From a virus, in the IMG/VR virus record IMGVR_UViG_3300005526_000003, positions 1 through 50,056 of that record: 50,056 bases of DNA; one strand, 5' to 3'. The notes beneath the pieces are model-generated. The model saw only the letters and a program-made list of their open reading frames with translations, made no database searches and had not been told where the DNA came from. Shown here in pieces: positions 2,757 through 37,171 of the stretch. The stretch's first letter is position 1. The number at the start of each line of letters is the position of its first letter. The position numbers and the translations under genes are program-made.

Positions 2757-3326
2757 TCATTCTCCTTTACTGCTCGTATCAGTAACCGGCGTAATCTGAC
2801 CCTCAATGACTTCCGCCTTCCGGCGTCTCAGCAGATCTACTAGGTTATTGCCTAGTTCCTCGAGGTGAACGTGGGTCTCTTGGATCGACACGCGGGCACC
2901 CTTATCTCCCAGGCCGAGATTCGACCCCGCCATCTTGGCGACCTGGACCGCCAGTTGATCCGGAACCTTGTCCGGAGTGGCGTCCAGCTTATAGCGGAGG
3001 ATCTCGAGGCTGCGGGAGAGGATGCCCTCGAATTGATTCTTCAGGGAGGCTCTGACTTCAGGATCGACCAGCTTATCCCGGCGCTCGGCGAGGCGGCTCT
3101 GGAATAGGTCGGAGCAGATAATCGTGCTGATCCAGCTCGCGCTCATGCCGAAGCGATCCGCTAGCTCGTTCTGGGAGATCCAAGGCTCAGCGATCAATTG
3201 ATCTATGAGAGCCTCATGCGTATAGCGGAGCTTCTGAAGTGGCTCCCGGCGCGGCGCGAGCGGGGAGGCGCCCGGCACTACCTCACCAGGCTTCGCATCC
3301 ACCAACGCTTGGAGCAGGGGATTCAT
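2757..3326 (-). CDS. HTH DNA-binding protein, probable small terminase subunit
   Basis: First gene of the leftward late operon, about 125 bp downstream of the divergent promoter; ATG 3326 is preceded by GGGAG. The 189-residue product has a helix-turn-helix at about 48-70 (SQNELADRFGMSASWISTII), an alpha-helical middle and a C-terminal oligomerisation-like segment (HVHLEELGNNLVDLLRRRK). This layout matches small terminase subunits, which bind packaging sites on DNA and hand the end to the large terminase. Against this, TerL lies far away at 41968, beyond the fibre genes. The alternative is a transcription regulator of the late operon, which its position next to the promoter would also fit. Confidence 0.6.
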   Translation of the reverse strand: MNPLLQALVDAKPGEVVPGASPLAPRREPLQKLRYTHEALIDQLIAEPWISQNELADRFGMSASWISTIICSDLFQSRLAERRDKLVDPEVRASLKNQFEGILSRSLEILRYKLDATPDKVPDQLAVQVAKMAGSNLGLGDKGARVSIQETHVHLEELGNNLVDLLRRRKAEVIEGQITPVTDTSSKGE

Positions 3327-3433
3327 CTATTCTCCCATGCCCCCTGAGTTAGGTCAATTTCGGCCCCCGCAAACTCAGTGGATTTGTCAGCTCGCCCGCG
3401 ATTATCCCCCGGCTCGCCGGCGAGTGTCAATCA

Positions 3434-3448
3434 AGCACTCGAAGTGCT
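3434..3448. promoter_or_regulatory. Perfect palindrome just downstream of leftward promoter
   Basis: AGCACT-CGA-AGTGCT is a perfect inverted repeat with a three-base centre. It lies directly after the leftward TATAAT box (3456-3461), where the leftward transcript would start. A second palindrome, CTCGCCGGCGAG, lies at 3413-3424. Either could be an operator for the late operon or a 5'-end hairpin in its transcript. Confidence 0.4.
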
Positions 3449-3455
3449 GGCGGTT

Positions 3456-3498
3456 ATTATACGGGTATATAACACCATGTGTTATACGGTGGTATAAT
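3456..3498. promoter_or_regulatory. Symmetric divergent promoter with central palindromic operator
   Basis: A palindrome with 8-base arms (TATAACAC-CAT-GTGTTATA, 3468-3486) is centred on base 3477. A rightward TATAAT lies at 3493-3498 and a leftward TATAAT at 3456-3461, each centred 18.5 bases from the middle. Each palindrome arm carries ATAACA, a 4/6 match to the -35 consensus, 18 bases from its own -10 box. The element would fire rightward into the early arm and leftward into the late arm, and a dimeric protein bound at the palindrome would cover both -35 regions. The rest of the 3327-3854 gap has GC-rich sequence and no gene I can support. Confidence 0.65.
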
Positions 3499-3636
3499 AC
3501 AGGTGCCGCAGTATCGCAAGGAGGATTGGGCGCGCGCGCGTGCGCAGCGGAATTTTCCCCCCTCCCCTTCGCTGGCGCAGCGGAACGCCCGGCGAGGCTG
3601 ATTGTCGCACCAGCGACGCAATCGAATCGCGGGCGC

Positions 3637-3682
3637 GTGTTGCGCTGCACCATGACCAGCCGCCGGTGTTGCACTGCACCAT
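3637..3682. repeat. Two direct repeats in the control region
   Basis: GTGTTGCGCTGCACCAT at 3637-3653 recurs at 3666-3682 with one change (A for G), 29 bases apart. A degenerate third copy in partly inverted form follows at about 3689-3704 (TTGCGGTGCAGCAC), then a CATGCATGC run. The spacing and position between divergent operons fit an iteron-like replication site or a regulator-binding cluster. This is inference. Confidence 0.45.
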
Positions 3683-3854
3683 CAGCCACGTTGCGGTGCA
3701 GCACCTCATGCATGCGGCATGCCTGGCGCACCTCGCCAATTGTTACAACTGAAATAATCGGGATGCGCGAAACCCGTTGACGGCGAAGCCGCGCTCGTGG
3801 TAGGTTTCACATCGACCCCGCCCAATTGCGGGCGGATTTCGGAGACTCGCTCAC

Positions 3855-4454
3855 ATGAACACTCAAACGACTCCCAAATTCCGCGAATCGTCCGTGACGG
3901 CTGTCACGCGCGACGCGGCTGGCATTACGGTTTGGTTCCGCGAAGTTCGCAAGCGTGCGGATGGCGAAGGGGTGGAAACGGTTCGCGTACTCGACCCCAT
4001 CACGCTGGCGTATTCCGACTGCTCCGAGGCCGTGCGCGCCGAGGCGCTCGGGTATGGGTTCGAGGTGCGGCTGACGCGGCAGGCCGCGATGGAGCGCGAC
4101 CCCCGCACGCACAAGCCCGTCTCGGTGGAGGTGAAGGCGGCGGCGGTTCGCGAGCTTCGCGACCATTACGCCTCCGGGACCGACTCTTGGACGTTGGCGG
4201 CTGGCGGCGGCGGGGGCGGTGGGCTGTCGGCTGAAACGAAGGCCCTCATTCAGGCCGTTCAACGGGTGTACGGGTTGGAGGCGGATGTGGCCGAGGAGGC
4301 CGTGCGCGCCATGTCGGGGCCGGAGCGGGATGCGCTGCGGGTGGACGCGGAGATCAAGGCCGTACTCGACACCATCTACGCGCAGCGCGCGGGCGCGGCT
4401 GACGCGGGGGCGCTCAAGGCGAAGCTCGCGGGCCTGGTCAAGAAGGCGGGCTGA
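3855..4454 (+). CDS. First early protein, 199 aa; paralog of the 10209 protein
   Basis: First gene of the rightward operon and followed by a strong terminator, so it can be expressed as its own unit. No known family is recognised. It is clearly related to the protein at 10209-10850: both have a beta-rich N-terminal half, a short helix then a glycine-rich turn (AAGG here), a helical segment, an acidic step (LRVDAEIKAVLD versus LRMDPEIKPIVE) and a basic C-terminal helix with ALK-x-x-L. The linker here is a run of eight glycines after Ala-Ala. Its length and position suggest an abundant, very early protein that could bind nucleic acid or host machinery, but that is inference. Confidence 0.75.
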   Translation: MNTQTTPKFRESSVTAVTRDAAGITVWFREVRKRADGEGVETVRVLDPITLAYSDCSEAVRAEALGYGFEVRLTRQAAMERDPRTHKPVSVEVKAAAVRELRDHYASGTDSWTLAAGGGGGGGLSAETKALIQAVQRVYGLEADVAEEAVRAMSGPERDALRVDAEIKAVLDTIYAQRAGAADAGALKAKLAGLVKKAG

Positions 4455-4469
4455 ATCGGGGCGAATTGC

Positions 4470-4496
4470 GAGGGGGCTTCGGCCCCCTCTCTTTTT
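4470..4496 (+). terminator. Rho-independent terminator after first early gene
   Basis: GAGGGGGC (4470-4477), a TTCG tetraloop and GCCCCCTC form an eight-base GC-rich stem, followed by TCTTTTT. This is a textbook intrinsic terminator 15 bases after the stop codon of the 3855 gene. It isolates that gene from the rest of the early arm. Confidence 0.9.
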
Positions 4497-4557
4497 GTCC
4501 AGCTCTCTTGTAGTCCAGACGCCGACCCGCCACTCTGCTGGCGTGCTGGGGGTTGTA

Positions 4558-4816
4558 CAACAACAACAACAACAACCACCAAAACCAAGCACGAACCCCT
4601 CATTCCCCCCGGGCATAATCGCCCAGTCAGGGGTGTGCTCAGCTGAGCGGGGTATAGGGGCTTGATTCTCATTTTTTTTTCCTTCAAAAAGACATAACGC
4701 TCAGACGACATCCCTAGGCGGCTAAGACGACTGGGGAGGAGGCCAGCTGGGCGGGTTTCACCATGGGGAAAGGGAGGCAATCGTATTGGGTTTTGGTTGT
4801 TGTTGTTGCGGTTGTT
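4558..4816. repeat. Large imperfect inverted repeat with CAA/TTG runs around an AT-rich island
   Basis: The left arm, 4558-4588, is six CAA units followed by CCACCAAAACCAA. The right arm, about 4786-4816, is the reverse complement in outline (TTGGGTTTTGG, then repeated TTG with one interruption). About 197 bases lie between. They hold a hairpin GGGC-ATAATC-GCCC (4609-4622), a 12-base palindrome GCTCAGCTGAGC (4637-4648), a run of nine T (4672-4680) and a local AT-rich stretch. No gene is supported in 4455-4931. The layout would suit a replication origin, a recombination site or a long RNA stem. Confidence 0.55.
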
Positions 4817-4931
4817 GCTCAAGCTCCACGGTCAGCACTCAATGTCCTCCCTTGCCAGCACCCCGCCGGTGTGCCACAATACCCGAGATCGGGACCCGAC
4901 GGCACCACACTTCCCCCGGAGGCAGGCGAAA

Positions 4932-5408
4932 ATGACCGGCAGTCGATTCGACAAGGGTAACACAGCGGCAGCTCGCCTCACCGCCGAGCACGTCTTCTCG
5001 ATTAGGGAGCGCTATGCGAACCGGCAGTCCACGCAGAGGCAGCTCGCCGCCGAGTTCGGTGTCACCATCACCACGATCAGCAATATCGTGCATGGACTGA
5101 CCTGGCAGCGCGTACCGCGTCCAGAGTCGCCCGAGGATGTTGAGCATCGCATTGCGGAGAGCCAACGCCGGTTGCAGGCGCTACTCCAGCACGACGCCGC
5201 GGATGAGGCGATTGAGAAGCAAATTCTCGACCTCACCGCGCCCAAACTCGCGGTGCAACCGCCCAGATCAATTTCAGAGAATGCGGCCGATCTGGCCAGC
5301 ATGGCAGAAGGCCTCCGCAAGCGGAAGGCCGATCTTGACTCGCAAGCAACTGAGGAGACTCGCGATGACCAATCCCACGATAATTCAGGCTCTCAACCAA
5401 CTGAGTGA
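4932..5408 (+). CDS. HTH DNA-binding protein, 158 aa
   Basis: Start chosen at ATG 4932, preceded by GGAGG at a suitable distance; the open frame extends further upstream but without plausible protein sequence. Residues about 15-60 form a helix-turn-helix (LTAEHVFSIRERYANRQ, QLAAEFGVTITTISNIVHG, LTWQRV). This pattern is familiar from small phage regulators and from DNA-recognition modules attached to HNH endonucleases, but no nuclease motif follows. The C-terminal half is charged and probably helical or disordered. It is the best candidate in the early arm for a protein acting at the repeated palindromes. The gene overlaps the next by 44 bases. Confidence 0.65.
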   Translation: MTGSRFDKGNTAAARLTAEHVFSIRERYANRQSTQRQLAAEFGVTITTISNIVHGLTWQRVPRPESPEDVEHRIAESQRRLQALLQHDAADEAIEKQILDLTAPKLAVQPPRSISENAADLASMAEGLRKRKADLDSQATEETRDDQSHDNSGSQPTE

Positions 5409-5862
5409 AGAGCACGCCAGGCGGATGCGCCGCTGGCAGTTCACCATCAACATGCACCTCCCTCTCTTCGATATCCTCACGGATAAGGAGGTGGAGTTCG
5501 CCTTCGACACACACGATTCGGCGATAACTCTCCGAGTAGCGGGGGATGGGGAGCGATTCAAGACGATCTGGCGTACCCTCCGGCAGGCCGGCTGGCATCC
5601 TAACAATCACCCCAAGCCGGAGGCGGTTAGCTCGTTCTGCTGCTTCTGGAGCTATCCGAGGGAGGGGAAGGATCGCTGGGATCACGACGAGCGATTCGTC
5701 CAGCTCTGGTATACCTACTCTTCCACAGTCTGTAAGATGAAGAAGATAGGGACACGCCAGGTGACTCGGGAGGAGGACGTTTACGAAGTAGACTGTGGGC
5801 AAACGCCGCTCGGGGAGCTGCTCGCCAGCGAGAACGACAATCCGCAAGTTCGGGAGGGCTGA
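5365..5862 (+). CDS. Unrecognised early protein, 165 aa
   Basis: ATG 5365 is preceded by GAGGAG and lies inside the end of the HTH gene. The product is a mixed alpha/beta protein with a helical N-terminus (IIQALNQLSEEHARRMRRWQ), a central region rich in Trp, Tyr and His and three Cys (two adjacent in FCCFW), and an acidic C-terminus. A segment (ITLRVAGDGERFKTIWRTLRQAGWHP) resembles small RRM-like or ferredoxin-like beta-alpha-beta folds by pattern only. I do not recognise a family. Confidence 0.65.
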   Translation: MTNPTIIQALNQLSEEHARRMRRWQFTINMHLPLFDILTDKEVEFAFDTHDSAITLRVAGDGERFKTIWRTLRQAGWHPNNHPKPEAVSSFCCFWSYPREGKDRWDHDERFVQLWYTYSSTVCKMKKIGTRQVTREEDVYEVDCGQTPLGELLASENDNPQVREG

Positions 5863-5865
5863 GTC

Positions 5866-6069
5866 ATGGAAGTTCCAGTAACACTGCTGGCCCAAGCTCT
5901 TCGAGAGGCTTGGGACAAGCAGGATGCTCGGGGGAACTACCCCGAGTGTCATGGTATTGTGCTAGCAGCTCAGTCCATAGCAGATGTGCTCAAGACAATC
6001 AACCCCAGCCTAGATCCTGAGACTTTCCTAAAGGATGCTGGAATGGGCCACTGGAGGAGGCAATCATGA
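5866..6069 (+). CDS. Small helical protein, 67 aa
   Basis: ATG 5866 follows the previous stop by three bases, with GGGAGGG upstream, and the end overlaps the next start by four bases (ATGA). The product is predicted mainly helical (LLAQALREAWDKQ, AQSIADVLKTINP). It has no cysteine cluster or membrane segment. Function unknown. Confidence 0.6.
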   Translation: MEVPVTLLAQALREAWDKQDARGNYPECHGIVLAAQSIADVLKTINPSLDPETFLKDAGMGHWRRQS

Positions 6070-6323
6070 TTCTCTACTATCTGACCGACGACGAGGGGGA
6101 GCACATCATGACTGCTCCCCTCTCCACCATTGCTCATTTCTACCGACTCCACCCCGATGCGATTCGGCGGATTGAGAAGGAGACCGTTAGCCTCAAAGGC
6201 ATCTGTACTCTCTCCTTCGGCTCCCTCTACGAAGGAGCCCGAGTTTCGAGGGTGCACGTTCGCCGGCTGCCCGAGGAGATACCCTCCGCTCCCATTACTG
6301 TGACGATCCACGATAGGAGATAG
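6066..6323 (+). CDS. Small protein, 85 aa
   Basis: Coupled by ATGA to the gene before it, with GGAGG upstream. The product has an N-terminal beta-strand (MILYYLTDDEGEHI), a helix (TIAHFYRLHPDAIRRIEKE) and more strands. It has no motif I can name. Its place directly upstream of the helicase cluster suggests an accessory early role. Confidence 0.6.
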   Translation: MILYYLTDDEGEHIMTAPLSTIAHFYRLHPDAIRRIEKETVSLKGICTLSFGSLYEGARVSRVHVRRLPEEIPSAPITVTIHDRR

Positions 6324-6327
6324 GAAG

Positions 6328-6522
6328 ATGAAGACTCGCAAGACCATCTCCGCACTCGTCCGGCGCAACGCCGAGGCCTGTGCGAATGCCTGGAAGCCGC
6401 GCTGCACTTGCCAGTGCAAGCGGACCCTCCACCGAAAGCCCCACTCGGAGGAGTGGATGCAGGAGACCATTGAGCGGCTCGTCGCGGAGCACGAGGCCGA
6501 GACGGGGGAGGCACTCGAATGA
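6328..6522 (+). CDS. Small Cys-containing basic protein, 64 aa
   Basis: ATG 6328 is preceded by AGGAAG. The product has a basic N-terminus, a CTCQC cluster with a further Cys nearby (ACANAWKPRCTCQC), and an acidic helical C-terminus (EEWMQETIERLVAEHEAE). The cysteines could bind zinc, although the spacing is not a standard finger. It overlaps the helicase start by four bases (ATGA), so the two are probably co-translated. Confidence 0.6.
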   Translation: MKTRKTISALVRRNAEACANAWKPRCTCQCKRTLHRKPHSEEWMQETIERLVAEHEAETGEALE

Positions 6523-8015
6523 ATATCCTCACTCAAATAATCCCGGAGCCCTCCGGGGGCTCCGGCGCTCCGTCCCGGAGTTGGAAGGCCTCTCCCCTCC
6601 AAGAAGCAATCTTCTCCGCAGTTCGGGAGACTCTCGATCCTGTGATCGTGGAGGCAGTCGCCGGCGGGGCCAAGACCACTACCATCATAGCGGCAACCGA
6701 GTGGACGGCTGATCCCACTCTCTTCCTCGCCTTCAACAAGAGCATCGCGGAGGACATTCGGGGGAAGCTCAGGAAGGGAGAGGCCAAGACCCTCAATGCT
6801 CTCGGGCATCGGCTCTGGATGATTAATCAACCTCAGGCTCGGCTGGACGCCAGGAAGACCGAGAAGTTGATTGAGAAAGTCCTCCCCTCCGAGGATGTGA
6901 GGCGGAAGTTCGGCTACATCCTGGGGAGAGTAATCTCCACGGCCAAGGCTAACGGGCTTGGGATTGACTCCGAAGTAAATGCCAGCGACTTCGACCGCTT
7001 TATAACTAATGGGGAGTGGGATATCGATGACTCAGACATTATGGCTGCGGCACACTACGCCGCCCAAGTATTCAACTTCTCCCGTTCTGACGTGGCCACC
7101 TTTGACTTTGATGACCAGCTCTACGGGCCAGTCTATCACGGCTGGCACTTCCCAAGCTTCGGCACCGTTCTTCTGGACGAGGCGCAGGATCTCAACCGGA
7201 TTCAGCATCTCTTCGTCGAGCAGCTACTCAATCAAACGGCCAGGCTCATCGCAGTCGGGGACCGACACCAGGCCATCTATGCGTTCCGAGGGGCGCTCTT
7301 CAATAGTTTGGATCTGCTGAAGGAGCACTTCCGGATGAGGGAGATGCCCCTCTCGATCACCTACCGCTGTCCTCAGCGGGTGGTGACGCAGGCACAGCAG
7401 CTCGTCCCCCATATCCAGGCGAGGGAGGGAGCACCCGACGGTATGGTCCTTCATCAGTCCGACACCTCCGACGACGACCCCGAGGTCTTCTTCGGGGAGG
7501 ACCAGCTGGTCCTCTGCCGCAACAACGCTCCCCTCTTCGCCGCCGTCATGCGGCAGGTCCGAGCGAGGCAGCCATGCCGGGTGCTCAGCAACGCCCTCGA
7601 GGGGCTCGCCTCGTTCATCAAGCGATTCCGAACTCAGGATGTTCAGGCGCTCCTGATCCGGGTCGATCGCTGGTTGGATAAGGAGACCCTCGCCGCCGAG
7701 TCGAAGGGAATGCCCTGGAAGGTCGCTGCCCTAGCCGACAAGGCCGCAACTGTCCGCAGCCTGGCCGAGGGCTTCACCACTACGGATGAGGTGCTGAATG
7801 TCATACGACAGCTTGCAGAAGGAAGGACTGGTCCCTTGTTCAGCACAATACACAAAGCCAAGGGCCTTGAGGCTGACCACGTTTACTTTCTCCGGCCTGA
7901 CCTCGTGCCGGGCTGGTGGATTAAGGAGGAGGCCGCCCTTCAACAAGAATACAATCTTCGCTATGTTGCTATCACGCGTGCGAAGCAAACTCTCACGTAT
8001 GGAGTAAGGAAATAG
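6519..8015 (+). CDS. SF1 DNA helicase, UvrD/Rep-like
   Basis: ATP-dependent DNA helicase, 498 aa, with all core motifs in order: Walker A variant VAGGAKTT (about 50), Walker B/motif II LLDEAQD (about 220), motif III VGDRHQAIYAFRGA, motif IV-like ITYRCPQRV, motif V TIHKAKGLEADHVYFL and motif VI LRYVAITRAKQTL near the C-terminus. It is shorter than bacterial UvrD (about 720 aa), so the 1B/2B insert domains are reduced, as in other phage SF1 helicases. It probably unwinds DNA ahead of, or alongside, the family A polymerase encoded later in the same operon. The stop is followed by an open, very acidic frame in -1 register (see the next entry). Confidence 0.92.
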   Translation: MNILTQIIPEPSGGSGAPSRSWKASPLQEAIFSAVRETLDPVIVEAVAGGAKTTTIIAATEWTADPTLFLAFNKSIAEDIRGKLRKGEAKTLNALGHRLWMINQPQARLDARKTEKLIEKVLPSEDVRRKFGYILGRVISTAKANGLGIDSEVNASDFDRFITNGEWDIDDSDIMAAAHYAAQVFNFSRSDVATFDFDDQLYGPVYHGWHFPSFGTVLLDEAQDLNRIQHLFVEQLLNQTARLIAVGDRHQAIYAFRGALFNSLDLLKEHFRMREMPLSITYRCPQRVVTQAQQLVPHIQAREGAPDGMVLHQSDTSDDDPEVFFGEDQLVLCRNNAPLFAAVMRQVRARQPCRVLSNALEGLASFIKRFRTQDVQALLIRVDRWLDKETLAAESKGMPWKVAALADKAATVRSLAEGFTTTDEVLNVIRQLAEGRTGPLFSTIHKAKGLEADHVYFLRPDLVPGWWIKEEAALQQEYNLRYVAITRAKQTLTYGVRK

Positions 8016-8125
8016 ACAGGATCGATTGGATCTGGGAAGACCCGGAGGGGGACGACGACGAGTCCTCCCCCTTCGGCTTCAACGAAGACTTCGAATCGGA
8101 GGAGTATGGGGATGACGAAGGATGA
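8012..8125 (+). other. Acidic open frame after helicase, no standard start codon
   Basis: From the helicase stop (8013-8015) the -1 frame reads on to TGA at 8123-8125, encoding a strongly acidic peptide (IDWIWEDPEGDDDESS, then NEDFESEEYGDDEG). There is no ATG, GTG or TTG in frame after the helicase end. It could be a -1 frameshift extension of the helicase at AAGGAAATAG, a small gene with a rare ATA or ATC start behind AAGGA, or chance. The composition looks protein-like. Confidence 0.3.
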
Positions 8126-8615
8126 AGAGATCGCCCAACTGCGCCAGAAGATCGAGGTGTATGAGGCCGAGCACGCCGCCCTGTACAAAGCGCAGCAAGA
8201 GCAAACGGGCAGCCAATGGCCCCTGGCGTTGAAGGCACAGTGCGATTATTTCGCGGCAGAGTGCGAGCGGCTGACGCGCGAGCGGGACGGGCTGCGCATT
8301 CTCCTCAACAGTCCAGCCGCCGAGCGGCTCCAAGAGATCAAGCGGCTGCGCGCGGCGCTGGAGCGGATCATCGAGGTAGACGACTACAGTACGCACGCAC
8401 CCAACAGCATCAAGCTATTCAAGCAAATTGATGCTATCGCCCGCGAAGCCCTGCGACCCGCTGACGAGCTGGATACGACGCCAGAGCATCTTATGAAGCA
8501 GGGATACAGGTCAGGTCGAGCAGCGGACGAGACGACGGCTGTTCATCGGGTCCAGCCCGACGGTAGATGCTCTTGCGGCTATGACCCCAAGGTCCACTCA
8601 ATCCATGCCATGTGA
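8106..8615 (+). CDS. Coiled-coil protein with C-terminal Cys pair, 169 aa
   Basis: ATG 8106 or 8112 (MGMTKDEE), with GGAGGAG upstream favouring the second. Residues about 5-110 show heptad patterning (EEIAQLRQKIEVYEAEHAAL, ERLTRERDGLRILL, RLQEIKRLRAALERI), so a long coiled coil is likely. The C-terminal 30 residues have a CSCGYDP motif and a terminal His, possibly a small metal site. It overlaps the following gene by four bases (ATGTGA). Phages often carry such proteins in early accessory clusters; function unknown. Confidence 0.65.
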   Translation: MGMTKDEEIAQLRQKIEVYEAEHAALYKAQQEQTGSQWPLALKAQCDYFAAECERLTRERDGLRILLNSPAAERLQEIKRLRAALERIIEVDDYSTHAPNSIKLFKQIDAIAREALRPADELDTTPEHLMKQGYRSGRAADETTAVHRVQPDGRCSCGYDPKVHSIHAM

Positions 8616-8824
8616 GAGCGAGTCAGATGCGCGATAGGATAATGGAGAAATTTGGAGCTTTCTGGCGCAAAAGCGGGCATAGATTCGGCTGCCTCGCGGA
8701 CGAGTTCAGAGAGAAGTCGCCGGAGGCCCATGCGAAGTTGCGCAGAAATATCATGTCGGCTGGCTATCGCGCTGGCTATGAAGCCGGAAAGCGAGCCACT
8801 GTGGGCAAGGCAGAAAGTCGATGA
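8612..8824 (+). CDS. Small basic protein, 70 aa
   Basis: The earliest start is GTG 8612, which overlaps the previous TGA; ATG 8627 and ATG 8642 are alternatives. The sequence is basic and helical (EKFGAFWRKSGHRFGCLADEF, GYRAGYEAGKRATVG). The C-terminal GYRAGYEAGKR is a pattern seen at the ends of many small phage proteins of unknown function. The end overlaps the next start by four bases (ATGA). Confidence 0.55.
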   Translation: MRASQMRDRIMEKFGAFWRKSGHRFGCLADEFREKSPEAHAKLRRNIMSAGYRAGYEAGKRATVGKAESR

Positions 8825-9015
8825 ACCGCCGCTCTTTCCTGAAATTCGCCGCCATTCTCACGGCGATCCCGGTTCAAGTGTTCGCTTGGGCGCGCGACCG
8901 CATCTGGTATCCGCGTAACGGACCGCAGTTGACTGAGGCACTGAGGAATGCGAGCGAGGGAGATATGATCGTTCTGGAGGCGGGGAAGACATATGACATG
9001 CACCACAGAATTTAG
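8821..9015 (+). CDS. Twin-arginine signal peptide plus start of a beta-helix domain, 64 aa
   Basis: The N-terminus NRRSFLKFAAILTAIP is a good match to the Tat export motif (S/T-R-R-x-F-L-K) with a hydrophobic core and a likely cleavage site after VFA. The mature part (PQLTEALRNASEGDMIVLEAGKTYDM) matches the opening of pectate-lyase-like parallel beta-helix proteins, where a helix is followed by GDxIxLxxGxY. The protein then stops, so it is either a truncated relic of an exported beta-helix enzyme or a very short secreted protein. It is coupled by ATGA to the previous gene. The next gene overlaps its last 23 bases in another frame. Confidence 0.6.
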   Translation: MNRRSFLKFAAILTAIPVQVFAWARDRIWYPRNGPQLTEALRNASEGDMIVLEAGKTYDMHHRI

Positions 9016-9178
9016 AGATGGTGGCTGGCGCATCATGGGCCACGGATTCTATGGGGACAAATGTACGTCTTGTGGACTGCCGACAGAGGATTTTGAATAC
9101 CTTACTAGGGACGTTCGCGTGTTTTGTGATGTGAATCTGACCACTGGTGAGGTGACATTCCCAGTGGACAAGGAATAG
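8993..9178 (+). CDS. Small Zn-ribbon-like protein, 61 aa
   Basis: ATG 8993 lies inside the end of the Tat-signal gene, with GGAGG 10-15 bases upstream. The product contains CTSCG and a later VFCDV, and looks like a small beta-rich zinc-binding protein (GHGFYGDKCTSCG, RDVRVFCDVNLTTGEVTF). Only three or four Cys are available, so metal binding is uncertain. Function unknown. Confidence 0.55.
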   Translation: MTCTTEFRDGGWRIMGHGFYGDKCTSCGLPTEDFEYLTRDVRVFCDVNLTTGEVTFPVDKE

Positions 9179-9266
9179 AGTCATCGAACAGCGTTGTAGA
9201 GCGAGGTCAGGGAATGAGACTGGTCACCGCCGTTGTCTTCTAAAGACGGGGCATCGAGGCCCGCAT

Positions 9267-9374
9267 ATGAAAGACCTTAAAATGATGCATCCGCTCTCGG
9301 TTTGGGCTATGGCCTTGGCGGTCGCCATTGCGCTGACTAGTTTATGTTTGTGGGTCTTGGGCTTGTTGGGCTAG
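9267..9374 (+). CDS. Small single-pass membrane protein, 35 aa
   Basis: The ATG at 9267 opens a frame MKDLKMMHPLSVWAMALAV followed by a continuous hydrophobic stretch to a TAG at 9372-9374. The product is one transmembrane helix with a short charged N-terminus. It sits nine bases before another membrane-protein gene. There is no strong ribosome-binding site, so confidence is moderate. Confidence 0.45.
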   Translation: MKDLKMMHPLSVWAMALAVAIALTSLCLWVLGLLG

Positions 9375-9383
9375 GGAGCAAAA

Positions 9384-9644
9384 ATGAAATACCTACTGAT
9401 CTTCTGGACCGTAACTTCTTTGGGGTTTTTGGCTTCGCGCCTGATGTTGCGCAAGTACGATAGGGCTGCACTGCCAGCCGCATGGAGTCCCTCGACTCGA
9501 GGAGAACTCTTCATTCTGGCAGGCGTTATTTTCGTAGTCCTGCCGGGACTGCTGCTGGAAGTCCTCTATGAGACGCTGATGTTGCCCAAGCGCCGGCGAG
9601 AGGAAGAGCGCCGGTGGCAGATGAAATTAGACAAAGGTTGCTAA
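9384..9644 (+). CDS. Two-helix membrane protein, 86 aa
   Basis: ATG 9384 is preceded by AGGGAGCAAAA. Residues about 3-20 (LLIFWTVTSLGFLASRL) and about 43-62 (LFILAGVIFVVLPGLLLEVL) are transmembrane segments, joined by a basic/aromatic loop, with a strongly basic tail (KRRREEERRWQMK). The early position makes it less likely to be the lysis holin; inner-membrane host takeover or superinfection exclusion are possibilities. Confidence 0.6.
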   Translation: MKYLLIFWTVTSLGFLASRLMLRKYDRAALPAAWSPSTRGELFILAGVIFVVLPGLLLEVLYETLMLPKRRREEERRWQMKLDKGC

Positions 9645-9657
9645 AGGAGAAAGAAAG

Positions 9658-10161
9658 ATGGACACAATCCTAATCCAAGGTGGAGAGATGCAGCTGGTGA
9701 GCTGGGACCCTGGCTCTACCGGCGGCACCTACACAGTAGAAGGCATCAATATGATCCTAGGCGGGAAGTCCTGGGCATTCGAGCTGGACTCCTCTAGCTC
9801 TACCTGCCTCAGTATCCTCCCCGGTGGCCAGCCAGTGCCGACCGGCCCAGTCTCCCCCAACATCTGCCACGTCTCCGCCATAGATAGTGTCCGACCATAT
9901 GGCACTCCCTGCGATGGCTGCTTCAACATCAGCACCTACTCGAGCGGCCAGTACCAGCGGGACGGGGGCTTCTTCACCGGCACCCTCCTTCGAACCGAGT
10001 CCGTCCCCTACGCCGACCTGCCGAGTCTCCGTCTCGGCGCCACCAGTGTCTCAGAGCCGAGCCTCCTCGCCCTCGCCGCTGTGGCGGTTGTAATCAGCAC
10101 TTGCATGTCTTTGTTGACACGCGGGCGCGGGCGTGCCATGATCGTAGCGCATGTGGAATGA
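9658..10161 (+). CDS. Protein with PEP-CTERM-like C-terminal anchor, 167 aa
   Basis: ATG 9658 is preceded by AAAGGAGA. The main domain is beta-rich with Ser/Thr/Gly/Cys content (MQLVSWDPGSTGGTYTVEG, PYGTPCDGCFNI). The end reads SEPSLLALAAVAVVIS, then TCMSLL and a basic patch RGRGR. The order E-P-S, hydrophobic helix, Arg-rich tail is that of PEP-CTERM sorting signals used by exosortase systems in many Gram-negative bacteria, although the first P is S here. No N-terminal signal peptide is seen, which argues against standard export. A plain C-terminal tail anchor is the alternative. Confidence 0.55.
   Translation: MDTILIQGGEMQLVSWDPGSTGGTYTVEGINMILGGKSWAFELDSSSSTCLSILPGGQPVPTGPVSPNICHVSAIDSVRPYGTPCDGCFNISTYSSGQYQRDGGFFTGTLLRTESVPYADLPSLRLGATSVSEPSLLALAAVAVVISTCMSLLTRGRGRAMIVAHVE
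10114..10142 (+). promoter_or_regulatory. Putative promoter for the 10209 gene
   Basis: TTGACA at 10114-10119 is a perfect -35 box. Seventeen bases later CATGAT (10137-10142) matches the -10 consensus at four of six positions. It lies inside the end of the previous coding region, about 70 bases before the ATG at 10209. This fits independent expression of the 10209 paralog, which also has its own terminator. Confidence 0.5.
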
Positions 10162-10208
10162 ACGGGGGCGCCACCCGACTAAAGGCCCCCGCAAACTAGG
10201 AGATAGAA

Positions 10209-10850
10209 ATGGCTGAGACAGAAGGCAACGGGGCAACCCCCGCCAAGGCAGAGAAGAAGAGGGAAGTCGAGAAGGTGAAGATGGAGGATGGACGCGAAGT
10301 GGAATTCGTTGGTAAGGCGAAATTCTACAAAGACGTGATCGTTGCAGGGCGGACGATTGATGAGCTGTCCCCAGAAGAGCTGGCCGCTGCGAACACCAGC
10401 GACGTCAGCATCCGACTCGATTTCCGCAACGGCACTACCCGCAACTACCCCCTGAACCCGGCGCTGGGCATTCAGTATGCCGGCCACGGCGGGAAGCAGA
10501 AGTACGGGGACGAGCTGGCTGGCGAGGATGCGCCAGATCTGGATGATTGGGCTGCGAAGACGGATCGTCTCCACGAACGTCTGACCAATGGGGAGTGGAC
10601 CCGGGAGCGGGCTGGTGGTAGCATGGCGGGGACTTCCGTTCTCCTCCAGGCTCTCATGGAATTCACTGGGCGCTCGGCCCAGGAAGTCCGCGACCACATC
10701 AAGGACTGGACGCCCCAGGACAAGCAGCAGCTCAGGATGGACCCTGAGATTAAGCCGATTGTCGAGCGGATCGAGCAGGAGAAAGCTGCGAAGGCCACCA
10801 AGGTCGATACTGGGGCGCTCAAGGCCTCCCTGCGGAGTCTGGCTGCCTGA
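10209..10850 (+). CDS. Early protein, 213 aa; paralog of the 3855 protein
   Basis: ATG 10209 has AGGAG upstream. The first 35 residues are charged (Lys/Glu-rich), followed by a beta-rich middle (VSIRLDFRNGTTRNYPLNP), a helix (LHERLTNGEWTRERAGG), a second helical region, and a basic end KVDTGALKASLRSLAA. The match to the 3855 protein covers the helix/Gly turn, the LRMDPEIKPIVE step and the C-terminal ALKASL motif; this copy lacks the polyglycine linker. Like that gene it has its own putative promoter and terminator. Family not recognised. An abundant accessory protein of DNA metabolism is plausible but unproven. Confidence 0.75.
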   Translation: MAETEGNGATPAKAEKKREVEKVKMEDGREVEFVGKAKFYKDVIVAGRTIDELSPEELAAANTSDVSIRLDFRNGTTRNYPLNPALGIQYAGHGGKQKYGDELAGEDAPDLDDWAAKTDRLHERLTNGEWTRERAGGSMAGTSVLLQALMEFTGRSAQEVRDHIKDWTPQDKQQLRMDPEIKPIVERIEQEKAAKATKVDTGALKASLRSLAA

Positions 10851-11027
10851 TGAATAGCTCCGCCTGCGGCACTGCTGTATCCCGTTATGGCTTCGAGACC
10901 AGCAGTGGGTTTGGATCGGAGGGGGATAGGGTAATGCAGGTATCCCTCCCCACTTTCCCCGCCGCCTAGCCCCGCGGCAAAGAGGCAGCTCCCCTGCTGC
11001 CGAGTCCCCGAATGCGAGTCCGGGGGC
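10851..11027 (+). other. Non-coding, structured segment
   Basis: No gene is supported between 10851 and 11176. The segment holds several inverted repeats: CACTGCTG pairing with CAGCAGTG, GGCAGC-TCCCCT-GCTGCC, and CCCCG with CGGGG. These could fold in the 3' end of the 10209 transcript or form a small RNA. I tried to fit a tRNA here and failed: the T-loop and anticodon stem do not match. Confidence 0.35.
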
Positions 11028-11060
11028 GGAGAAGGCCACCGAGAGGTGGCCTTTTCTCCT
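11028..11060 (+). terminator. Rho-independent terminator after 10209 gene
   Basis: GGAGAAGGCCACC, loop GAGA, and GGTGGCCTTTTCTCC form a stem of at least nine perfect pairs (AAGGCCACC/GGTGGCCTT) with T-rich sequence immediately after the stem. It closes the 10209 unit about 180 bases downstream of its stop. Confidence 0.75.
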
Positions 11061-11108
11061 AGTGAGGATGCCGGATTATTCGGTGGTGGAAGCATGTAGA
11101 ATGCTCCA

Positions 11109-11144
11109 TTGACATTTACGCCCGGGTATAACACAATGTGTTAT
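11109..11144 (+). promoter_or_regulatory. Promoter with TAACAC/GTGTTA palindromic operator
   Basis: TTGACA at 11109-11114 is a perfect -35 box, and 17 bases later CACAAT (11132-11137) is a 4/6 match to the -10 consensus. The palindrome ATAACAC-AAT-GTGTTAT at 11128-11144 covers that -10 and the likely start point. It is the same motif as the centre of the divergent promoter at 3468-3486. A bound protein would block or reshape initiation here. It drives the cluster that begins at 11177. Confidence 0.6.
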
Positions 11145-11176
11145 TCGATGGTAAAACCAAAACGAGGGGAAGCAGC

Positions 11177-11374
11177 ATGCCAATGAAGGGAATGTGTGCC
11201 GACTGCCGCCATTCAGGCGTCATTCACCAATTTGGGGCCAGTCAATTAGTCTGCCGGGAGAAGCCGCCCGTTATCCTCCCCCTTCCGAGTCCGCAGGGCG
11301 TCCAACTCACCTCCTGCTTCCCCGTCGTCGAGCGCACTTGGGTATGTGGGAAGTACGAGGGGGAGCTGCAGTGA
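11177..11374 (+). CDS. Small Cys-rich protein, 65 aa
   Basis: I chose ATG 11177 because GAGGGGAAG precedes it; an in-frame ATG at 11138 lies inside the operator. Residues show CADCRHSG near the start, then single Cys residues (LVCREK, SCFP, WVCGKYEG). The spacing (C-x2-C, then three separated Cys) resembles small phage proteins that chelate zinc. First gene downstream of a promoter with the shared palindrome, so its expression is likely regulated. The end is coupled by GTGA to the next gene. Confidence 0.6.
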   Translation: MPMKGMCADCRHSGVIHQFGASQLVCREKPPVILPLPSPQGVQLTSCFPVVERTWVCGKYEGELQ

Positions 11375-11670
11375 GCGCCGATCGCCTCCAGATCATCCTC
11401 AAGCGCGCCCTTCATCGGGCTGCTCTCGCCAGGGAGGCGAAGAAGAAGCTCAAGGGGAAGATCCAGGCGGAGGCGATCGCGGAGGACTATGCGAATCGGC
11501 TCGCTGAGAAGCACCTCTACCGCCAGTTATTGTCCGACGAACGGATGGATGGGCTGCGATTCCGCTGGTTCTTCACCCGGATTCAGAAGGACACTTCGCT
11601 AGATGAGCTGAGACTTTGGATCGATCATAAGATTATAGAGGAAGACTCCCATGCTAAAGCTGCTCGATAG
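11371..11670 (+). CDS. Small basic helical protein, 99 aa
   Basis: GTG 11371 overlaps the previous TGA and has GGGGGAG upstream; the open frame extends further upstream but the sequence there is the shadow of the previous gene. The product is helical and basic at the start (LQIILKRALHRAALAREAKKKLKGK), then mixed (LRFRWFFTRIQKDTSLDELRLWIDHKIIEED). No family recognised. It could bind nucleic acid. Confidence 0.55.
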   Translation: MSADRLQIILKRALHRAALAREAKKKLKGKIQAEAIAEDYANRLAEKHLYRQLLSDERMDGLRFRWFFTRIQKDTSLDELRLWIDHKIIEEDSHAKAAR

Positions 11671-11800
11671 GTTGCACCGGACGATAAATCGCTGGCGAAT
11701 ACGCCGCCATCTTGCTTGGCTGAAGAGGAGCCGGTACGTCTCCTCCTCCCCGAGTCACCTCTGCCAGCGGGGCAAGACTGAGTGTGCGGGGAAGGTATGA
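11651..11800 (+). CDS. Very small basic protein, 49 aa
   Basis: ATG 11651 lies in the end of the previous gene behind GAGGAAGA, and the frame ends TGA at 11798-11800, coupled by ATGA to the next gene. The product is strongly basic (LDRLHRTINRWRIRRHLAWLKRSRY) with two Cys near the end. The spacing and coupling support translation; function unknown. Confidence 0.5.
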   Translation: MLKLLDRLHRTINRWRIRRHLAWLKRSRYVSSSPSHLCQRGKTECAGKV

Positions 11801-11985
11801 GACACCCCTCCCGCGTCGGCCTCTACAAGAGCCGCAAAGACCGACTGCGAAGCACATTACCCAAGCGGGCGGCAGTGCTCAGCTACGGGCACCGCAACTA
11901 TCAGACGAACGGAAACAGCGCCAGCAAGCTGAGAATCTGGCTACGCAAGCACCTGAGTAAAGTGCAATATGCGAGGTACTCATAG
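11797..11985 (+). CDS. Small basic protein, 62 aa
   Basis: ATG 11797 is coupled by ATGA to the gene before and ends at TAG 11983-11985, which overlaps the next GTG. The product is rich in Arg, Lys, Ser and Tyr (HPSRVGLYKSRKDRLRSTLPKR, SKLRIWLRKHLSKVQYARYS). It has no acidic cluster and could bind nucleic acids. Function unknown. Confidence 0.5.
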   Translation: MRHPSRVGLYKSRKDRLRSTLPKRAAVLSYGHRNYQTNGNSASKLRIWLRKHLSKVQYARYS

Positions 11986-12173
11986 TGCCGCGCCCGCCTA
12001 ACATCATCCGCCCGATCCCGCTCCAGACCTCCCTCCCGGAGGATCTCCGCGCTCGGCTCGACCTTCACTTATGGTCCAACTCCGAGATGCGGGTGCCACT
12101 CGGGGCGTATCAGAAGCTAATCGTCCAACTACTTTCCGAGTACTTAGACAGAGTTGAGAGGCCCAAAGTATGA
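11985..12173 (+). CDS. Ribbon-helix-helix-like small protein, 62 aa
   Basis: GTG 11985 overlaps the previous TAG by one base. The sequence has a short strand (PLQTSLPEDLRARLD), then helices (LDLHLW, GAYQKLIVQLLSEYLDRV), the arrangement of Arc/MetJ-type ribbon-helix-helix proteins, where a paired strand binds DNA and the helices dimerise. Related small proteins (SLPEDLRARLDLHLWS... GAYQ) are common in phage early regions. It is a second candidate for a protein that acts at the palindromic sites. It is coupled by ATGA to the next gene. Confidence 0.6.
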   Translation: MPRPPNIIRPIPLQTSLPEDLRARLDLHLWSNSEMRVPLGAYQKLIVQLLSEYLDRVERPKV

Positions 12174-12385
12174 TCCAATCTCCCGAAATCCAGGCCCGCA
12201 TCGCAAACTGGCGAGCGAAGCAGGCCGCCGGCACTATGACGCCAGAGGACTGGCAGCAGGCGATGGCTGACCTGCGGCAAGCCCGCACCGGCGCCCAGGC
12301 CGCACGCGCCAGCAAGGCCACCGTGAAGAAGGTGGTGGACACCCAGGCACTCAAGGATTCCCTCCGCTCGCTCGCGAAGAAATAG
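12170..12385 (+). CDS. Small helical protein with the shared ALKxSLRSL tail, 71 aa
   Basis: ATG 12170 overlaps the previous gene (ATGA). A helical N-terminal region (IQARIANWRAKQAAG, TPEDWQQAMADLRQAR) is followed by a basic linker and a C-terminus VDTQALKDSLRSLAKK. This tail is nearly the same as the end of the 10209 protein and similar to that of the 3855 protein. A shared C-terminal docking helix is a plausible reading. The rest has no recognised family. Confidence 0.65.
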   Translation: MIQSPEIQARIANWRAKQAAGTMTPEDWQQAMADLRQARTGAQAARASKATVKKVVDTQALKDSLRSLAKK

Positions 12386-12393
12386 GAAGAAGA

Positions 12394-12576
12394 ATGGACC
12401 GTTACATCGCCATTTATCAGGTGAATTGCGCAGTGTGCGAGCACACGCCGGTCGTTGGACTGCGTACTCCGTCAGGACAGATCGCCAGCACCGGCCTCTG
12501 CGGTTCCCATTTCTGGGGCGACCGCTCCATGCTCGACCCGGAGGACTGGAATAAGCCCCAAGATCCAACTGAATAG
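12394..12576 (+). CDS. Small Cys-containing protein, 60 aa
   Basis: ATG 12394 with AGGAAGAAGA upstream. The product has C-A-V-C (residues about 11-14) and L-C-G-S-H (about 36-40), so CxxC plus CxxH gives a possible zinc ribbon or knuckle. The ends are acidic and Pro-rich (LDPEDWNKPQDPTE). It sits just before the PD-(D/E)XK nuclease gene. Function unknown. Confidence 0.6.
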   Translation: MDRYIAIYQVNCAVCEHTPVVGLRTPSGQIASTGLCGSHFWGDRSMLDPEDWNKPQDPTE

Positions 12577-12586
12577 GTAGATTCCC

Positions 12587-13498: not shown

Positions 13499-13587
13499 TT
13501 GAAGAAACAATGGCTTACATCTTCGTCGGCGTTGGCCTAGTCATCCTTGGAGGCGCCGTGATAATCTGGCTCTGGAGGCGGATGTGA
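13495..13587 (+). CDS. Tiny single-pass membrane protein, 30 aa
   Basis: ATG 13495 overlaps the nuclease stop by four bases, and its own TGA (13585-13587) overlaps the next GTG by four bases. The product is essentially one transmembrane helix (YIFVGVGLVILGGAVIIWLW) ending RRM. Tight coupling on both sides supports translation. Function unknown. Confidence 0.6.
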   Translation: MIEETMAYIFVGVGLVILGGAVIIWLWRRM

Positions 13588-14811: not shown

Positions 14812-14837
14812 CCCGCCTCTTCCTTAGGAGAATCCAG

Positions 14838-15320: not shown

Positions 15321-15329
15321 GAGATCCGA

Positions 15330-19997: not shown

Positions 19998-21227
19998 GTG
20001 ACAATCAATGGCAAACAACCCTCTCGAAACTTCCCAGATTGGCTCGCCGCTTACACTCAGTATGCAGGATTTTCTGAAGCTCCACGCCGAATGCATTACT
20101 GGTCTGGCATCGCGGCTGTGGCAGGTGCCCTGCGACGGCACGTCTGGATTGACATGGGATACTTCCGCTGGTTTCCCAATTTTTACATTATTCTGGTCGC
20201 ACCCCCCGGGGTTGTCTCCAAGTCGACCACAGCTAACATTGCTATGCAACTACTGCGCCGAGTACCTGGAATTAACTTCGGACCGGAAGCAGTAACCTGG
20301 CAGGCCCTAGTCGACTCCTTCGAGAACAGCACCGAGTCCTTCCAGATCGATACCACGCATTACATCCAATCTGCGATGACGATAGAGTCGGCGGAGTTCG
20401 GGAATCTAATAGATCCCTCTAACCGAGAGCAGATCGACTTCCTCGTCAGCTTGTGGGACTCGAAGATCGGCTCCTTCCAGAAAGTCACGAAAGGCTCGGG
20501 TACTAACAATGTCGAGAATCCTTTCATCAATCTTATCGCTTGTACTACTCCAGCTTGGATTGCTGGCAACTTTCCTGAATATGTTATCGGAGGTGGTTTT
20601 ACTTCCCGCTGTCTATTTGTTTACGCTGAGGAGAAGGAAAAGTACATTGCGTATCCAGCTCGACATATGCCTGCGGAGATGGCAGAAGTCCAACGCGCTC
20701 TTGTGGAGGATCTGGAGCGAATATCAACACAGATTATGGGACCCTACGGGATCGATAGGTCGGCGATAGAATGGGGGGAGGAGTGGTATGCGACGCATTG
20801 GCAGAACAAGCCAGACGAACTCGACGACGACCGCTTTTCAGGGTATCTCGCTCGAAAGCAGACCCATATTCACAAGACCGCCATGTGTGTGGCTGCTTCT
20901 CACGCCGACGAATTATTTATCACCAGGGCAGATCTTGAAACTGCTAACCAGGCAGTGTCCGACCTCGAGCGAGATATGGTGAAGGTGTTCGCCCGGATTG
21001 GACGGACGCAGACTTCCGTCCAAGCCGAGCGATTTATTAGATTTGTGCAGAAGAGGGGGCGGGTCTCATACGCCTCCGCCTACCAGTTCATCCATACCGC
21101 CTTCCCCTCAGCGAAGAACTTCGAGGATATAGTCGCCGGCGCCTGCAAGGCGGGGTACATACAGATTCAGGCGGCTAATGGGGGCGGGTATGAGCTGGTG
21201 ACGGTTACGCGCCCGAATAACACATGA
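19998..21227 (+). CDS. DUF3987-like P-loop protein, probable primase/helicase component
   Basis: 409 aa; GTG 19998 directly after the polymerase TAA. The N-terminus has the family's usual opening (FPDWLAAYTQYAGFSEAP, HYWSGIAAVAGALRRHVWI), then a Walker A-like loop APPGVVSKSTT that lacks the central GK-T spacing of the standard motif. A beta-strand core follows (AMTIESAEFGNLI, LIACTTPAWI). The C-terminal about 100 residues are winged-helix-like (RVSYASAYQFIHTAFPSAKNF). DUF3987-type proteins are often fused to or near phage primases and are thought to load or move the replisome. It is the last gene of the early arm. The degenerate P-loop leaves doubt about ATP hydrolysis. Confidence 0.65.
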   Translation: MTINGKQPSRNFPDWLAAYTQYAGFSEAPRRMHYWSGIAAVAGALRRHVWIDMGYFRWFPNFYIILVAPPGVVSKSTTANIAMQLLRRVPGINFGPEAVTWQALVDSFENSTESFQIDTTHYIQSAMTIESAEFGNLIDPSNREQIDFLVSLWDSKIGSFQKVTKGSGTNNVENPFINLIACTTPAWIAGNFPEYVIGGGFTSRCLFVYAEEKEKYIAYPARHMPAEMAEVQRALVEDLERISTQIMGPYGIDRSAIEWGEEWYATHWQNKPDELDDDRFSGYLARKQTHIHKTAMCVAASHADELFITRADLETANQAVSDLERDMVKVFARIGRTQTSVQAERFIRFVQKRGRVSYASAYQFIHTAFPSAKNFEDIVAGACKAGYIQIQAANGGGYELVTVTRPNNT

Positions 21228-21238
21228 TGTTATCCGGG
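21212..21238. promoter_or_regulatory. Hairpin/palindrome at the convergence of the two arms
   Basis: CCCGA-ATAACA-CATGA-TGTTAT-CCGGG forms a stem of 11 positions with a single A-C mismatch. The core TAACAC-ATG-ATGTTA is the shared palindrome with one mismatch. It overlaps the last codons of the 19998 gene and ends five bases before the stop of the convergent gene at 21243. As a folded RNA it could end transcripts from both sides; as DNA it could be a binding site. Confidence 0.55.
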
Positions 21239-21242
21239 TGTA

Positions 21243-21425
21243 TTATCTCAGCCCCGGCCCCGCCAGCGGATGCCCTAGCACCCAGTTGAGAATCCAGAGC
21301 AGGATAACAATGCTCACCACTACGTAAATCACTGTCTTAACGATAGGTGAGATGCCAGGAATCTGCCCCACCACCCACAGTAGCAGCCCAACGATCGCCA
21401 GCACTATCACAAATACAATCAGCAT
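21243..21425 (-). CDS. Small two-helix membrane protein (Thivi_2564-like), 60 aa
   Basis: ATG 21425. Two hydrophobic helices (IVFVIVLAIVGLLLWVVG and TVIYVVVSIVILLWILNWV) are separated by QIPGISPIVK. The arrangement and sequence style match the small phage/bacterial family named after Thivi_2564. It is the last gene of the late arm, next to the spanin pair, so it probably helps lysis or alters the membrane; a second holin or antiholin is an option. Confidence 0.7.
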   Translation of the reverse strand: MLIVFVIVLAIVGLLLWVVGQIPGISPIVKTVIYVVVSIVILLWILNWVLGHPLAGPGLR

Positions 21426-36173: not shown

Positions 36174-36197
36174 AGTTGTCTCCTGATAGACGGAGGA

Positions 36198-36238
36198 TTA
36201 TGTGGGTGAATAACACATCATGTTATCCACCCACATAA
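36198..36238. promoter_or_regulatory. Stem-loop with the shared palindrome after the major capsid gene
   Basis: TTATGTGGGTG-A-ATAACA-CATCA-TGTTAT-C-CACCCACATAA: 11 perfect outer pairs, a mismatch, and six inner pairs, with the core TAACAC-ATC-ATGTTA. It is the same core as at 3468, 11128 and 21216. It lies within the 77-base gap between the capsid gene and the next gene. A folded RNA here could trim or stabilise capsid mRNA or reduce readthrough. No T-run follows in the leftward direction. Confidence 0.6.
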
Positions 36239-36250
36239 CCGTGAGCCTGA

Positions 36251-37171
36251 TTACGGCCCGTTATTACCAAAGATCGAACGCGGGTCCGTAGCGCCCACGC
36301 TCAACCTCATATACGACCTCGCCTTCAGATTCATCGTGTCGAAGTCGTTATCCTGGGCAAAGCCAGGCTTCTCTCTCCAGTAGAACTTCAACCCCTCCGG
36401 ACAGTTGGTTCGGACGAACCAAGCGTGGGCGGCGGTAAAGTAGTGGTTCATCTTGATCCCGCCGGGGAAGGCATTCGTCGCCTTCAGCACGTTAATGTCG
36501 TTGTTAGCCGTGCCGGGCTGCAGCACACTCTTCAGAATGCGGTGTGCATTAAACCACTCTTGCCGGGGGATGTGGAGGGACGTTGGCATGATATTGACCA
36601 GCAGCCCACGGTCGTTCTGCACGCCCATGATCTGGATGACCATATCCTCCAGCGTAGACTCCGACAGGTCCCCAGTCGGACTGGCGGCGTTGCTGTAGGT
36701 GCCGCCAGTCGTATTAGGGTGGGCCGTATTACACAGACTCACCCCATCTCCCCCCAGAAAGAACGTTCCGGTGAACGCATCATTGTAGGGAACCACCGCC
36801 ACATTCTCAATCGTCTGCACCATGGAGAATGCATTCGACTTCGCCCGCCTCGTCGAGACCGTCTCGTAGAGGTTATCCGACAACTCCTCGTAGGTCACCT
36901 TATAGCCGAGGAAGTACGCCAGATGGGTGTAGCGAGTAACGGGTCCCTGAGTCTCGTAATCAAAGTACCCTGTCGCACCCTCCCCCTTGAATTGCGCGAG
37001 TCCGAAAGGCGTGACCTGCACGTCTTCCTCCCACGCCTGGGTCGAACTATCCACATCGTAGAGGTCAGGGAATTCATCCGGGTGCTCCGAATATACCTGC
37101 CCCCACACCGCCTTGATGCCGGGCCACAGTAGTTTTGGGTGGCTGCCAGTAGTGATAACGCCGCCTGCCAT
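36251..37171 (-). CDS. Major capsid protein (HK97-type fold likely)
   Basis: 306 aa; ATG 37171, with GGAGAATCC upstream. The start GGVITTGSHPKLLWPGIKAVWG is followed by a helix-rich spine (HLAYFLGYKVTYEELSDN, VSTRRAKSNAFSMVQTIENVAVVPYN) and a C-terminal strand region (EGLKFYWREKPGFAQDNDFDTMNLKARSY). The pattern matches major capsid proteins of the HK97-fold/Mu gpT-like class, in which a spine helix and P-domain strands make the shell. The strong hairpin after the gene, scaffold and decoration genes around it, and a size of about 300 residues all support this. Confidence 0.8.
   Translation of the reverse strand: MAGGVITTGSHPKLLWPGIKAVWGQVYSEHPDEFPDLYDVDSSTQAWEEDVQVTPFGLAQFKGEGATGYFDYETQGPVTRYTHLAYFLGYKVTYEELSDNLYETVSTRRAKSNAFSMVQTIENVAVVPYNDAFTGTFFLGGDGVSLCNTAHPNTTGGTYSNAASPTGDLSESTLEDMVIQIMGVQNDRGLLVNIMPTSLHIPRQEWFNAHRILKSVLQPGTANNDINVLKATNAFPGGIKMNHYFTAAHAWFVRTNCPEGLKFYWREKPGFAQDNDFDTMNLKARSYMRLSVGATDPRSIFGNNGP

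Follow-up and report, generated by a model that had tools for sequence, protein, structure and literature searches.

The window, i.e., the whole stretch of 50,056 bases analyzed here, is organized in two opposed gene sets. Rightward genes extend from 3855 to 21227, and leftward genes run from 3326 through the record ends to about 21243. An exact 70-base terminal repeat (1–70 and 49987–50056) closes the record to roughly 49,986 bases, and open reading frames run off both window ends; from these two features it follows that the record is probably a whole genome. A gap at 3327–3854 separates the leftward from the rightward genes and thus places the locus between divergent genes, as the first-pass annotation had stated. 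It holds TATAACACCATGTGTTATA (bases 3468–3486), a palindrome centered on 3477. TATAAT boxes at 3493–3498 on the plus strand and at 3456–3461 on the minus strand are each 18.5 bases away from this center, and ATAACA hexamers (3469–3474, plus; 3480–3485, minus) are found at −35 distance of the respective TATAAT. Each ATAACA-18-TATAAT pair reaches a consensus score of 10/12. The re-read bases match the positions given earlier for the palindrome and its two symmetric boxes. Furthermore, a longer inverted repeat with 21-nt arms of 76% complementarity (3455–3475 and 3479–3499) spans the site, and the boxes are symmetric because both of them sit within its outer arms.

Other repeats occur nearby. Direct repeats GTGTTGCRCTGCACCAT with an inverted partner lie at 3637–3711 in the non-coding gap right of the palindrome, and a GC palindrome, CTCGCCGGCGAG, at 3413–3424 falls within the spacer of a candidate leftward promoter. 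A strong hairpin with a T-run at 4470–4489, resembling an intrinsic terminator, is located just past the first rightward gene.

Recurrence of the dyad in the window

A tolerant search located the palindrome core at further places. The palindrome is the core of a 43-bp dyad that is found four times in the window, centered on 3477, 11136, 21225 and 36218 (sites 1 to 4, Table 1). An extended pattern matched at 3457–3497, 11116–11156, 21205–21245 and 36198–36238 and at no place in 100 dinucleotide shuffles; the four-copy recurrence exceeds chance. Under a gene set that leaves 8.4% of the window non-coding, three of these 41-bp matches are free of any coding base; the one at 21205–21245 shares 26 bases with gene ends. 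Site 1 marks the divergence and site 3 the convergence of the gene sets, site 2 lies inside the rightward set, and site 4, next to the putative capsid gene, belongs to the leftward set. The earlier proposal that transcription of the whole genome is switched at a single site is therefore not supported in view of the three further dyads. The TATAAT pair is present at site 1 alone and absent from the other three copies, and the double promoter hence belongs to the site 1 copy and not to the dyad element in general.

Table 1. Dyads, neighboring genes and candidate promoters in the window
Feature	Coordinates	Strand	Remarks
Site 1, 43-bp dyad	3456..3498	.	Divergence gap, upstream of putative small-terminase gene and early genes; TATAAT boxes form part of the outer arms
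Site 2, 43-bp dyad	11115..11157	.	Between gene 10209–10850 and the operon holding the RHH-like gene
Site 3, 43-bp dyad	21204..21246	.	Junction of rightward and leftward genes; overlaps DUF3987 gene end
Site 4, 43-bp dyad	36197..36239	.	Flanked by the putative major capsid gene and the late gene after it; has the best palindromic symmetry among the four
TerS-like gene, leftward neighbor of site 1	2757..3326	-	HTH by eye, putative small terminase; adjoins terL in relative L006
62-aa RHH-like protein, proposed cognate regulator	11985..12173	+	P12, Q14 and S16 (strand) covary with site sequence across phages
DUF3987 (primase-like) gene	19998..21227	+	Gene end carries site 3
Putative major capsid protein	36251..37171	-	Weak matches; just upstream (in transcription) of site 4
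Stronger candidate leftward promoter, TTGACA-18-GATAAT	3401..3430	-	11/12; beyond the dyad, on its TerS-like gene side
Candidate rightward promoter, ATAACA-18-TATAAT	3469..3498	+	10/12; TG before −10; inside site 1

For the protein of the TerS-like gene, no family match was found. The gene at 15613–16950 combines a ParB-like N-terminal part with a DNA methyltransferase part (PHROGs) and is widespread among relatives. The protein encoded at 10209–10850, near site 2, occurs in 19 of 24 relatives and has no PHROG match. Amid the late genes, 24175–25539 matches Pfam GARS_A, the phosphoribosylglycinamide synthetase ATP-grasp domain (E 3e-10), and is conserved in 14 of the 24.

Genome-private site families in related phages

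Relatives were gathered via the DNA polymerase and via the DUF3987 protein, for which the set comprises the best 80 of 536 IMG/VR relatives. A pattern scan of related viral contigs for the window's own motif gave a single match, in L008, which we take as chance since this contig is AT-rich and the match falls within coding sequence. Dyads of equal size but different sequence do occur in relatives. They were first indicated by a palindrome present in seven near-copies in G002 and by palindromes just past the DUF3987 stop codon in relatives. An ungapped palindrome-cluster scan missed most families because the bases at the dyad center rarely pair; it was replaced by a half-site comparison on intergenic DNA of 25 genomes or contigs, for which shuffled controls gave one chance pair. 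Site families private to one genome were present in 18 of these 25. Position-weight scans located 2–9 sites per genome in 15 genomes, with scores of about 28–57 for nearly all sites and shuffled maxima of at most 17.5. The site upstream of the RHH-like gene in G001 is a weak exception, with a score of 14.2 versus a threshold of 13.8. Site families of G011, G012 and G022 were added after the first position-weight scans. In the remaining seven (G013, G015, G018, G019, G020, G021 and L007), of which four are contigs of 19–34 kb, no family was found; G018 and G019 look like near-copies of one another. The named phages 119X, QDWS535 and MW202796 did not yield a convincing site family either.

Site positions recur across these phages. 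Where all landmarks are present (11 genomes), a site is found 0.1–1.7 kb upstream of the TerS-like gene in every case, in the interval from gene 10209 to the RHH-like gene in ten (the exception being G012), and right behind DUF3987 in ten, the site in G009 lying before this gene. A site in the gap between the capsid gene and gene 35394 is clear in eight. In G009 it lies next to the capsid gene, gene 35394 not being found, in G010 beyond gene 35394, and in G011 it is barely above control. The G022 contig is without a TerS-like gene and has the other three site positions. Of the conservation looked for in the palindrome, position and architecture are thus kept in relatives, whereas the sequence differs. 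In eight genomes, identity between different positions of the same genome was 0.670 (48 pairs) versus 0.421 for the same position across genomes (112 pairs), from which we infer that sites evolve in concert inside each genome.

The half-sites have an inner symmetry of their own. Each of them forms a pseudo-palindrome centered +12.5 from the dyad axis, which holds for 17 of 17 genomes, with a pseudo-dyad score of 0.469 versus 0.258 for column-shuffled half-sites. An AT-rich, ATAA-like element at +4 to +8 is common to most genomes, and the private part is the core around +12.5. As part of the regulon reading set out below, which we consider likely, the operator would be a 42–43-bp dyad of two half-sites, each with a specificity core of 4–6 bp, and with AT-rich flanks about one helical turn apart.

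A candidate regulator that covaries with the sites

According to the orthologue tables, a small number of genes are near-universal in the complete genomes, and the TerS-like HTH gene, gene 10209 and the gene of the 62-aa protein belong to this group. The latter protein follows the pattern x-L-x-x-x-L-P-E-D-L, in which alternate residues are variable. G006 and G010 feature K/T/H at the variable strand residues and both have a TACGTGG core, a pair that was spotted before the strand was chosen for testing. In 13 genomes, Mantel analysis related the strand residues to site sequence with r = 0.39 (p = 0.0004), and with r = 0.40 (p = 0.0002) in a partial Mantel analysis given polymerase and DUF3987 identity. 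The rest of the 62-aa protein gave r = 0.08 (p = 0.32), and ten other whole proteins, including the TerS-like protein, the gene 10209 product and the methyltransferase, ranged from −0.12 to 0.19 (all p > 0.11). In a blind scan of 2534 seven-residue windows from nine proteins, the RHH-like strand window ranked first (0.536); without the G006/G010 pair it was third, with methyltransferase and gene 10209 windows ahead. The best single covarying residues are 14 and 16, and the triad 12/14/16 reached r = 0.54 in 13 and 0.50 in 17 genomes. When only pairs involving the four later-added genomes were counted, the triad gave r = 0.49 (p = 0.0004). Along the half-site, covariation peaks at +11 (0.41) and +14 (0.35) and all but vanishes over the AT element (+4 to +8). 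All four phages with a K/T triad (G006, G010, L029 and L034) have ACGTA cores.

The Mantel sets did not comprise G002 and G017, for which the tblastn table listed no RHH-like orthologue, nor G011, G012 and G022, whose sites were found later; a later HMM match of G017 to the RHH-like protein was not used for covariation. Of 15 further genomes or loci tried, L029, L031, L034 and L043 were well above shuffled maxima and were added, one was too short, and the others were at or near control level.

In the solved RHH–DNA complex of AmrZ, bases are read by alternating strand residues, Lys18, Val20 and Arg22 (PMC3325190). Triad covariation points statistically, not biochemically, to the same role of alternating strand residues in setting base specificity. 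Two binders had been named by the first-pass annotation. The 11985 protein is the best-supported predicted binder by covariation, whereas the other one, at 4797–5408 (earlier 4932; HTH or HNH-like DNA-binding according to PHROGs), is found in 8 of 24 relatives only and is unlikely to bind the operators. Judged from the sequences, the 11985–12173 protein is probably the switch protein for the dyads.

We propose a ribbon-helix-helix (RHH) fold for the 62-aa protein, although its RHH membership is not established. Among 17 members scanned against Pfam, PHROGs and NCBIfam, none was assigned to an RHH family, Pfam RHH_1 (PF01402) was over its cut-off in none of 12 genomes, and a PDB sequence search gave no RHH match. 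Profile comparison with P22 Arc and Mnt remained at background level, though the alignment shows the expected register. Foldseek returned a single, unrelated PDB match (E 9.9), and a closer structural alignment covered only this one chain. The AlphaFold2 monomer (pLDDT 87) has helices at 19–29 and 41–58, and residues 1–18 are non-helical and form no strand, which in RHH proteins forms only in the dimer. Helices behind a non-helical N terminus are how an RHH monomer would look in such a model.

Promoters and a proposed mode of action

The leftward TATAAT of site 1, previously suggested as an element of the symmetric promoter, is probably not the main leftward promoter, because the better-scoring TTGACA-18-GATAAT lies between dyad and gene. 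In 8 of 14 genomes, the window included, a TTGAC-type promoter of at least 10/12 aimed at the TerS-like gene is found between the dyad and this gene. Overall, promoter-like sequence was near 22 of 80 sites versus 161 of 1600 shuffled segments, and promoters are therefore not a general feature of the sites.

From sequence comparison, we consider it likely that the four dyads, the one around the palindrome at 3477 included, are the operators of a dispersed regulon private to this phage, and that the RHH-like 11985 protein is its autoregulated regulator. Autoregulation is suggested by the site ahead of the RHH-like gene in nearly every genome; the regulator would be expressed from the operon that follows site 2. 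On binding to site 1, it should occlude the rightward promoter, since the candidate promoter is inside the dyad. At the same time it would sit upstream of the leftward TTGACA promoter, which it could activate or leave as it is. At sites 3 and 4, which lie at gene ends, the bound complex might act as a roadblock to elongation or exert local promoter control. In several relatives a start codon follows closely behind site 3, and promoter control is hence possible there. The net effect may be early shut-off, late activation or both, and this is the least certain part of the mechanism.

Alternative readings of the dyads

A symmetric pair of divergent promoters under one single-site switch would agree with the symmetric hexamers and with the place of site 1 in the divergence gap. 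However, there are three more copies, including one where genes converge, a better leftward promoter is located outside the dyad, and promoter-like sequence accompanies only 22 of the 80 sites, so that we regard this reading as quite improbable. More room must be given to operators bound by another phage protein, i.e., the TerS-like HTH protein, the ParB-N/methyltransferase fusion or the gene 10209 product, or by a host factor. The RHH-like gene is no more widespread than these candidate genes, a methyltransferase window ranked second and a gene 10209 window third in the blind scan before both moved ahead without one pair, and genome-private sites could also stem from host-specific factors. 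Yet the whole TerS-like protein does not track site sequence and none of its windows is among the 12 best, whereas the RHH signal is restricted to the strand and the core bases and persists in the added genomes. We therefore think another binder unlikely.

The sites might also work as RNA hairpins, be it as terminators, processing sites or promoters of a phage RNA polymerase read as hairpins. Site 4 could form a long hairpin, and sites are often near gene ends. Half-sites, however, are no less similar to half-sites of the other dyads in their genome (0.604) than to their own partner (0.569), which favors a DNA motif; the own partner was better in only 4 of 15 genomes, and site 1 has no reported T-run terminator. 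An RNA role thus seems very improbable. Few dispersed palindromes per genome would also fit centromere-like partition sites, as in phage-plasmids, but a ParA-type ATPase (Pfam CbiA, PF01656) was found in none of the 13 genomes searched, and we give this explanation hardly any credence. The dispersed operators of an RHH-like regulator hence remain our preferred reading.

Relation to known regulatory systems

Several known systems share single features with the dyads. MetJ, a host metabolic repressor, places an RHH dimer centered on an 8-bp palindrome with an ACGT core and has Lys and Thr on the strand. This resembles the K/T-triad phages with their ACGTA cores; in contrast, the tandem met boxes are 8 bp apart, whereas the cores described here are about 25 bp apart. 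The repressor of the temperate Streptomyces phage phiC31 binds conserved inverted repeats dispersed in its genome, and likewise the window has dispersed palindromic sites in one phage genome, although the protein is a different one. P22 immI, with Arc and Mnt, is similar in having small phage regulators with operators annotated within a divergent promoter region, and Arc is a ribbon-helix-helix protein (PMC3325190). P22, however, has single operators at one locus and not four dispersed 43-bp double operators, and the 62-aa protein has no detectable sequence kinship with Arc or Mnt.

The nearest described systems are stoperators and SPBRE/MrpR, both of temperate phages and both with other proteins and another site geometry. 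Stoperators of Cluster A mycobacteriophages (L5, Bxb1, Trixie) are repressor sites found genome-wide, with one consensus per phage and a motif distance that tracks repressor distance (PMC6550527). The window dyads share with them several copies of a phage-private site across the genome. Stoperators comprise 20–30 oriented 13-bp sites, in contrast to four symmetric dyads of 42–43 bp here (2–9 in relatives); being dyads, our sites have no orientation with transcription. In addition, stoperator phages are temperate and use another protein, whereas Pfam searches of 13 genomes for integrase, resolvase and ParA families (PF00589, PF00239, PF01656) gave no match. The SPBRE of SP-beta (PMC10516654) are repeated intergenic regulator sites that were found in silico before their binder MrpR was known, a likeness to the repeated intergenic sites of this phage. 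They differ in being a 15-bp motif bound by a prophage repressor with a tyrosine-recombinase fold. A literature search, restricted to titles and abstract openings and with subscription papers mostly outside its scope, gave no publication describing the element.

Possible private regulatory languages

We may speculate that an apparently lytic phage family possesses a four-operator regulon with an undescribed RHH-like regulator, in which the triad and all four operators have been rewritten jointly in each phage. This would amount to a private regulatory language that resembles immunity groups even though lysogeny genes are not detectable. Co-infection, or mimicry by rivals, would be a plausible selective force; we see the chances of this wider interpretation as evenly balanced. 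With no integrase, resolvase or ParA in 13 genomes, visible lysogeny genes do not explain the immunity-like site diversity. Should the wider interpretation be correct, one regulator and four unlinked DNA sites changed together many times within one phage family, with partners of amino acid and base readable from sequence alone. The family would then offer naturally occurring material from which to work out how two-stranded-sheet DNA binders recognize their bases and how a transcription factor shifts its specificity while keeping its regulon. It would also pose the question why phages without visible lysogeny genes diversify operator specificity like immunity groups, and assign a likely function to a protein family without convincing match in Pfam, PHROGs, NCBIfam or PDB.

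A cultured relative, Vibrio phage vB_VspS_VS-ABTNL-3 (L153, MF497422), in which no RHH-like protein was detected, has candidate AATTA-type dyads at 23218, 32151 and 39941, one of them in its convergence gap.
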